Source: Pseudomonadota bacterium (lineage in GTDB: Bacteria > Pseudomonadota > Alphaproteobacteria > Rhizobiales > Beijerinckiaceae). From it: a DNA stretch of 47,089 nucleotides. Within the stretch, counting starts at the first letter, position 1, and each line of letters starts with the position of its first letter. A model generated the notes under the pieces. The model was not told where the DNA came from. It worked only from the letters and a program-made list of their open reading frames with translations, and ran no database searches. The translations under genes and the position numbers were made by a program. Shown in pieces: positions 40,201 through 43,200 of this stretch. The stretch is from NCBI GenBank assembly GCA_020161975.1, contig JAIUNP010000003.1, positions 1 to 47,089 on the forward strand, in the 5' to 3' direction.

Positions 40201-43200
40201 CGATGGCGGTGTTGGCGGCAAAGGGTATGACATCACCATCGGCGCCGCGCAGTTGCGTCAAGCCGAAGGCACCTCCATCGACTCGGACGACAGAAAAAAT
40301 AGTTGGGACATACCGGCCAATGTCCCAACTGCGGCCGAGGTCAAAGCCGCCGCTGCACAGGCCGACACCAAGCCGACCGACGCCCAGAAGGAGGCCGGAA
40401 ACTATCAGATGGGGCATATCCAGTGGAACGGGCTGGACATCACCATCGAAACCGCCAAAGGCGCGATGCGGCGCGGCAAGGATCGGGACGGTGAAGATTG
40501 GTCGGTCAAGATGCCTGCCCACTATGGCTATATCAAGGGCACGCGTGGCGCGGACGGCGATCACCTCGACATCTACATGGGGCCGAACCCTGAAAGCACT
40601 GCGGTCTTCATCATCGACCAGGTGGATGCGGACACGGGCCGCTTTGACGAACACAAGGTCATGCTGGGCTTTGTCGCTCGTGAGGATGCACAGGCCGCCT
40701 ATTATGAAGGGTTCTCGGACGGGCGCGGTGAAGATCGCATGGGAGCAATCACCGAGCAGTCTGTCGATCAGTTCAAGGCGTTTGTTCAGAACAACTCATG
40801 GCTATTGCCTATCTCGCTCCACGGCCAGCGCGGCAAGGATGAACCGCAGAGTTGGGACGCAGGCTTTGCAGATCGCTTTGCCATGAAGCCCCGTGAGGTG
40901 CCGAGCTATTTCACCCAGCGAAAGACCAGCAACGGCTATCAGGCATACCTGAGGGGCTGGGACGCCGCCAACAAAGAGCGCATGGCACCAGAGATTCCGG
41001 GCAGCACCGGCACGCCCGGCGTCCTGCAAGTCACCAAGCCAAGGACAGGTCAGACGACAACGATTGACACTCGCCCATCTCAACCTGAGCCCAAGCCGAG
41101 AGACCGGATGAAAGATACCGGCCCTCAAGACGGGGCGGTTGAAGCAGAAACTCTTGGCGGGTTTTCTGTCGGTGATGCGGTCAAGATCAAGACTGGTGGC
41201 AGAAATATTGGGCCATCGAAAATTCTTCGCCTTTGGACTTATCAAAACGCAGTCGGAAAGATTGAAAAAGCCCAGATCATTGAAGACGAGAGCGGAAGGC
41301 CGCATGATGTCGTCTTGTCAGAGATCGAGCGCGCGGCCGAAGCAAAGGTATCTGATGCCAAGCCGAAAGCCAAATGGAACCAGATCGGCTATAGCGCCCG
41401 TTCTTTTCCTCTCTACGAGGATCTGAATGGCGTGCGGTCCTACGTCGAGGGCGGCATCAGGATCACCGAGACCGTTGGAATCGTGCCCGGCGGCGGCATC
41501 ACCATCGACAAGAGCCGTCGCGGCCGTGATTTCCTGACCGATGAAGAGTTTTCGGCGCAGCGCGAAGCCAAAGCTGATCAGTGGAAGAAGCCGCTTGGCA
41601 GCGCAAAGCCCGTATCCGCCGACCCTGACTTTGCTGAAATCAGCCTTCACCTGACGGGCCAGATCGAGCGGGCCAAAGCCAAGAAGGATGCAGTTGGCGA
41701 TGCTACCGTGCGCCGTCTGCGCATGAACCTCTGGAAAGCAGAAGAATCGCTCGCAAAGGCTTTGGCCGCTGCCAACTTCGAGGCATTTGCGCCGCATGAA
41801 GCAGATTTTCCGATTGCAGCAACCGCTCTGCGGACGGCTATCGGAAAGCGCGCTGGCCGTGTCGATCTTCTGAAAGCCGCGCAGGACTCCGGGCGGCTGG
41901 AGATTATCCATGTCACAGGCAAAAAAGAAGCCGCACCGGAAAAGCCTACCTATGGCGCATCCAACACCCTTGTCAGCGCAGACCGGGCCGCCGAGCTGCG
42001 CGCCCGCCTTAAGGACAAGCTGAAGAACCAGTTGAACGCCGGGATTGACCCGGAAATCCTCGCCATCGGCGCGGAACTGGCAGTGTTCCACATTGAGGCC
42101 GGGGCCCGCCGCTTCATGGATCTGGCAAAGGCCATCGCCGATGATCTGGGAACCACCCCTGCCAAGATCAAACCCTACCTGCGGTCTTGGTATAATGGCG
42201 CGCGCGACATGATGGAGGATGCCGGGCTTTCCATCGAGGGCATGGATGATGCCCGTGAAGTCGGGCGTCTGGCGAAGGAGATCATTGCAGATTCGCCACC
42301 CTCGCAGCAGGCCGAGGAAGGTGATACACTGAAATCCGCTGAATCCCCCGAGGTTGCCGCAAATGTTGATCAGTCAAACATCAGCCCAGGCCCTGGCCAA
42401 ATGGGCGAAGACGGAAAGCCGGAAACTGATCGCGGCCGGGGAACCGGAGCCGGGCCTGCCGCTGGAACAGTGGGTGATCGAAACCTGGAAGGTGGAGCGA
42501 CCGGACCTGACGCAGGCGATGCAGGAATGGGGCGCGCTGGCGCCGCTGGCGCACGTTCTGGTGGACAGGATGGTCAAAGCGGAAGCGGAGAACCTCAGAA
42601 GCGGCCTGCCGCCAAGCGACGCAAGGCAGGAAGCGGTGAAGGATTGGCTGATGTTCGATCCGACCGAGACCGCGCCGAAGGAACTGGCCGCGCCAACTAC
42701 CACATAGCCGATCCAGACGCGCTGTTCGCTGGCGGGCCGAAGGCGCGCTTTGCGAAGAACCGCGCCGCTATGGAGGCTTATCAGCGCGTCACCGATGAAG
42801 ACCGCGAGCCGACGCCGGCCGAATTGGACGCGATGGCTGCTTTCACCGGCTGGGGCTCGTTCGGACAGGAGCTGTTCCAAGGCAACTGGGGCTATCGCAA
42901 GCCGAAAGACGGCTGGACGGCCGAAGATCAATGGCTTCGTGATCATCTTGGCAAAGAAGGGTGGGAAAGCGCCCAAGCCTCGATCATCAACGCCCACTAC
43001 ACCGATCCGCCCACGGTTCAGGCCATCTGGTCTGCAATCGAGGCAATGGGTTTCAGGGGTGGCCGCGTTCTTGAACCCGCCTTGGGCATTGGAAACTTCT
43101 TCGGCATGATGCCGCGCACGCTGGAAGCCAATTCCCAACTGTTCGGCATCGAACTGGAAAAATCGACCGGCACCATGGCGAAGATGCTCTATCCGCGCGC

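Follow-up and report, generated by a model that had tools for sequence, protein, structure and literature searches.

Can a small gene be encoded out of frame inside a giant polyvalent gene, and would its product be made separately? The question is raised by a stretch of DNA of 47,089 nucleotides (the window), in which a shifted open reading frame lies wholly inside a much larger gene (Table 1). Comparison with relatives in phages and plasmids indicates that this frame is, with high probability, a conserved nested gene that would be translated independently of the giant.

The giant gene and its nested reading frame

The product of the giant gene belongs among the DarB-like polyvalent antirestriction proteins (PHROG_10089; DarB of phage P1). 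Its DarB-like antirestriction methylase-helicase spans residues 1707 to 3235 (PHROG_10089, E = 0, 1744 bits), and an inorganic-pyrophosphatase-like domain spans residues 1030 to 1165. Unlike the giant of the window, P1 darB begins near its methylase part. An LPD36 domain is described as preceding the methylase in DarB-like polyvalent proteins (PMC5512222); no LPD36 model appeared among the matches of the giant. The ten open reading frames scanned upstream of the giant include matches to terminase, portal, major head, internal virion, and other structural proteins. The predicted end of the giant lies 60 bases short of the end of the window (region 46990 to 47089) and the giant is smaller than those of ~13 to 15 kb found in several phage records.

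Table 1. Positions in the window of the giant gene, the nested gene, and associated signals
Feature	Position	Strand	Remarks
Giant polyvalent gene, 3245 aa	37292..47029	+	DarB-like match and pyrophosphatase-like domain
TGA, preceding stop in the small frame	42330..42332	+	33 nt 5' of the nested ATG
GAGG Shine-Dalgarno site	42350..42353	+	9 nt 5' of the ATG; predicted pairing, -7.1 kcal/mol
Nested gene (114 aa), from ATG to TAG	42363..42707	+	In the +1 phase with respect to the giant; homologues and codon-position signal
Start codon (ATG) of the nested gene	42363..42365		
Stop codon (TAG) of the nested gene	42705..42707		
Start of the methylase part within the giant gene, 333 aa	42689..43687	+	Served as unbiased bait

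The nested gene is housed in a Gly/Asp/Arg-rich linker ahead of the methylase part. The preliminary description of this DNA had reported a shifted open reading frame with its own GAGG and ATG, which was confirmed by the coordinates and by homologous +1 open reading frames in many relatives. Its further remark on third positions, said to be G/C rich in the small frame and weakly biased in the giant frame, also proved correct. The GC contents at codon positions 1/2/3 of the nested stretch are.66/.48/.78 in the small frame versus.78/.66/.48 in the giant frame; in the remainder of the giant, they are.70/.51/.67 before the nested stretch and.63/.43/.73 after it. The codon score per codon is +0.198 for the small open reading frame; the giant frame that it overlaps scores +0.169 there. 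Open length alone is weak evidence for a gene, since six other shifted open reading frames of 95 to 290 residues are present inside the giant. Frames of similar or greater length are thus available to the explanation by chance, according to which a high GC content and the codon bias of the giant leave long shifted frames open. However, the codon scores of these six are all below zero (-0.01 to -0.22). Among the 114-codon segments tested along the giant, the largest margin of the +1 score over that of the giant frame was obtained at position 42362.

Occurrence of the nested gene in phage giants

The first search returned relatives in an IMG/VR contig (62% identical) and in Pseudomonas phage vB_PaeM_USP_25 (34% identical), both being +1 open reading frames within giant genes. 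The annotated phage giants first examined (loci L003 to L015) contain a +1 open reading frame in the same linker in 13 of 13 cases. It is annotated as a separate gene in none of these 13 records, that of PBC5 reading it as the end of orf33. Most of these frames share a core starting with MNLxNW, those of Bcep, 8P, and Y7 being more diverged. A profile of this larger phage branch (the MNL branch) was used to gather IMG/VR loci, of which 65 out of 67 are nested in the +1 phase beneath a long open giant frame; the exceptions are PBC5 (L033) and locus L063.

Because loci should not be chosen by the answer, we assembled an unbiased set of 80 IMG/VR giants fetched through the methylase domain alone and searched 1.3 kb upstream with a profile. 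The small open reading frame was found directly upstream of the methylase domain in 70 of the 80 giants (E < 0.01), always in the +1 phase (70/70, with none in the other phase) and always under a giant frame open throughout. Ten giants gave no match at E < 0.01; four of these have a related +1 open reading frame at E = 0.037, and another three contain long +1 open reading frames of other kinds. Of the last three, one offers just ~330 bases of upstream sequence, and in two nothing clear was seen. The predicted hidden gene therefore recurs at one place in the giants of many phages and is almost always missed by annotation.

Further long +1 open reading frames occur at the same site in giants (L020, 5660 to 5932; L187, 3579 to 4091; L194, 3561 to 3980). 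They match none of the profiles and are possibly diverged or different nested genes.

A hidden gene of another kind has been published: in an actinophage methylase gene, the in-frame open ShiLan insertion hides an HNH gene that is out of frame and has its own start and stop while the methylase frame stays open, as here (PMC11855218). The preliminary description had held nesting of the present kind to be undescribed. This agrees with the open-access literature searched, in which we found no account of nesting inside polyvalent giants, but the similar ShiLan gene qualifies the claim. The precedent also lends itself to a different explanation, namely, that the linker was invaded by a selfish homing insertion carrying its own hidden gene. 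However, the gene hidden in ShiLan codes for a homing nuclease and the insertion occurs sporadically, whereas the nested gene of the window family is present in nearly all sampled giants, and scans of Pfam, PHROGs, and NCBIfam matched the hidden frame to neither an HNH nuclease nor any other nuclease family. We consider such an insertion to be barely credible.

In phage lambda, the lysis gene Rz1 lies wholly within Rz in a shifted frame; the proteins and their function differ from those of the nested pair of the window. Nested genes are thus known; to our knowledge, none is so widespread within polyvalent giants. The P1 record (L022) has no small gene annotated on the same strand within darB. 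It does have iddB (26577 to 26975), a small gene annotated within ddrB, which belongs to the restriction-protection set of P1. The likeness, drawn from the annotation, is that of a gene within a gene, and iddB lies on the strand opposite to ddrB, unlike the same-strand nesting of the window.

Selection on the two overlapping frames

Conservation was compared in both frames, a check that the preliminary description had put forward, and the small frame was the better kept. In each of the 11 groups tested, the small frame exceeds the giant frame in amino acid identity, and substitutions in the nested stretch fall mostly at position 3 of the small frame (11/11 on both counts). Between the window and its nearest relative, locus L001, there are 33/19/46 changes at positions 1/2/3 of the small-frame codons, with identities of.61 in the small frame and.43 in the giant frame. 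For the window-type set (57 proteins, 231 pairs), the identities are.52 and.37, respectively, and the changes number 9131/7703/10489, a modest position-3 excess. Because the loci share descent, neither pair counts nor the Shine-Dalgarno statistics given below are independent tests. Downstream of the nested stretch, the giant displays the usual substitution excess at its own third position. These comparisons show that selection has preserved the putative small-frame protein more than the giant frame that it overlaps. Chance does not account for this difference in conservation, for homologues at one place and in one phase in 70 of 80 giants, or for the similar nesting in Firmicutes (see below), and we regard it as a negligible explanation.

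Predicted initiation of translation

Small starts were chosen by closeness to the profile match, independently of Shine-Dalgarno strength. The median predicted pairing energy is -6.4 kcal/mol at 92 small starts versus -2.3 kcal/mol at 1633 giant-frame internal ATGs, and energies of -5 or lower are found at 89% of the former versus 17% of the latter. For several TnpV frames, the chosen start lies too far 3', an error expected to reduce the score of the small starts. A small-frame stop is located at most 30 nt upstream of the start at 29 of the 92 loci.

These data bear on a programmed +1 frameshift, by which the small frame would furnish an alternative C-terminal end for the N-terminal half of the giant. 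In the Sinorhizobium phage PBC5 (L011/L033), orf33 does fuse the small frame to the N-terminal half in a single open reading frame, as does PHROG_938. However, the PBC5 join results from a 1-nt deletion, either a real change or a sequencing error, ~45 nt 5' of the small ATG; the deletion is absent from the two relatives aligned with PBC5. In addition, Shine-Dalgarno sites precede the ATG, and the upstream stops in the small frame, such as the TGA of the window, restrict the entry points for a frameshift from the giant. Strong Shine-Dalgarno sites and upstream stops favor internal initiation over frameshifting, which we consider very unlikely. A separate protein of ~70 to 130 residues would then be made by internal initiation on the mRNA of the giant. 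The idea of a separate small gene within the giant, already advanced in the preliminary description, is strongly supported by the comparison of the methylase-baited giants, codon positions, and Shine-Dalgarno sites.

Probable distant relationship to TnpV

The window protein had no match in Pfam, including TnpV (PF14198). Related phage open reading frames scored 13 to 22 bits against TnpV, under the gathering score of 27, and the nested open reading frame of a Listeria sequence passed this cutoff (29 versus 27 bits). Profile-profile comparisons firmly linked the window-type branch to the MNL branch (probability 97.6, E = 4.7e-12) and moderately linked the MNL branch to TnpV (probability 75, E = 2.4e-5), with ~50 aligned residues that include the motif P-x5-[LM]-x3-G-x-L; the direct link between the window type and TnpV was weak (1.1, versus reversed controls at 0.1 or less). 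On this gradation of scores, TnpV is probably a distant relative of the phage family rather than the family in which the window gene should be filed.

Nested members of TnpV occur in Firmicutes in the +1 phase of SNF2/methylase giants, as in phages. In plasmids of Virgibacillus and Enterococcus and in two human-gut sequences, TnpV-like +1 open reading frames lie under open SNF2/methylase giants, and +1 nesting was found at 16 of 16 genome loci, the covering frame of one (L114) having just 303 codons. A probable distant relative of the predicted hidden gene thus recurs in the giants of plasmids and conjugative elements. In a Listeria plasmid (CP044431), TnpV is annotated and the covering giant is not, its frame stopping after 502 codons. 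Most of the Listeria plasmids among the matches listed show the giant only. A single Listeria query retrieved no relative from IMG/VR. Relatives of the window genome gave no signal at all when searched for TnpV, a result that carries little information.

Predicted structure and possible function of the nested product

AlphaFold2 predicted four helices in the same order in the MNL-branch and window proteins, with a pLDDT of ~90 across the helical core; the window protein has an extra N-terminal helix, in a model that had few close relatives in its alignment and leaned on the MNL-branch alignment. We infer from these models that the nested product would be a small compact helical bundle. With the MNL-branch model, Foldseek found no match in the PDB at E ≤ 0.001 and a sole strong viral match, Q8W6J4_2, taken to be PBC5 orf33 judging by its length and 70% identity. 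Fold comparison of the window model gave Z scores no higher than 3.8, such as chance often produces, and sequence searches of solved structures with the phage and TnpV profiles returned nothing convincing.

The distant profile link to TnpV raises the possibility of a DNA-acting product, an accessory to excision or mobility, as postulated for TnpV of Tn4451, for which a likeness to lambda Xis has been proposed (PMC3158075). However, the likeness of TnpV to Xis is itself a postulate, no DNA-binding family or fold was matched, and nested copies are present in lytic phages and virion-type operons besides integrating elements. A role of this type appears unlikely. The preliminary description had proposed a small virion or anti-host protein, a role that the product may have. 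The nested product may instead be made together with the methylase-helicase module as its partner, such as an assembly, loading, or regulatory factor. This is our favored guess, offered tentatively, because the gene keeps its place next to the methylase-helicase even between phages and conjugative elements with little else in common. Somewhat more doubtful is the broader proposal that phage giants and Firmicutes plasmids share by descent a single ancient nested gene, kept in one phase inside DarB-like methylase-helicase giants as a dedicated, co-made antirestriction component. P1 Ulx, reported to help the localization of DarB, was considered as a relative and rejected, as it has no profile relation to the MNL branch. 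Should the small frame be translated, tests of a missing component of DarB-like antirestriction may become possible, and the standard annotation rule of discarding contained open reading frames has concealed a whole gene family of phages and conjugative plasmids.

Origin of the nested gene

Free-standing TnpV genes are also known on other mobile elements. Together with a lone window-type copy in L116, a genome from the family to which the window belongs, they are compatible with the capture of a separate gene or with the escape of a nested one, and hence with the suggestion of the preliminary description that an originally separate gene was captured on fusion. The L116 homologue is on the reverse strand (~5666 to 6205), with no giant in the 12 kb examined. 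Its neighbors, as read from their translations, are the ribosome-maturation genes ffh, rpsP, rimM, and trmD.
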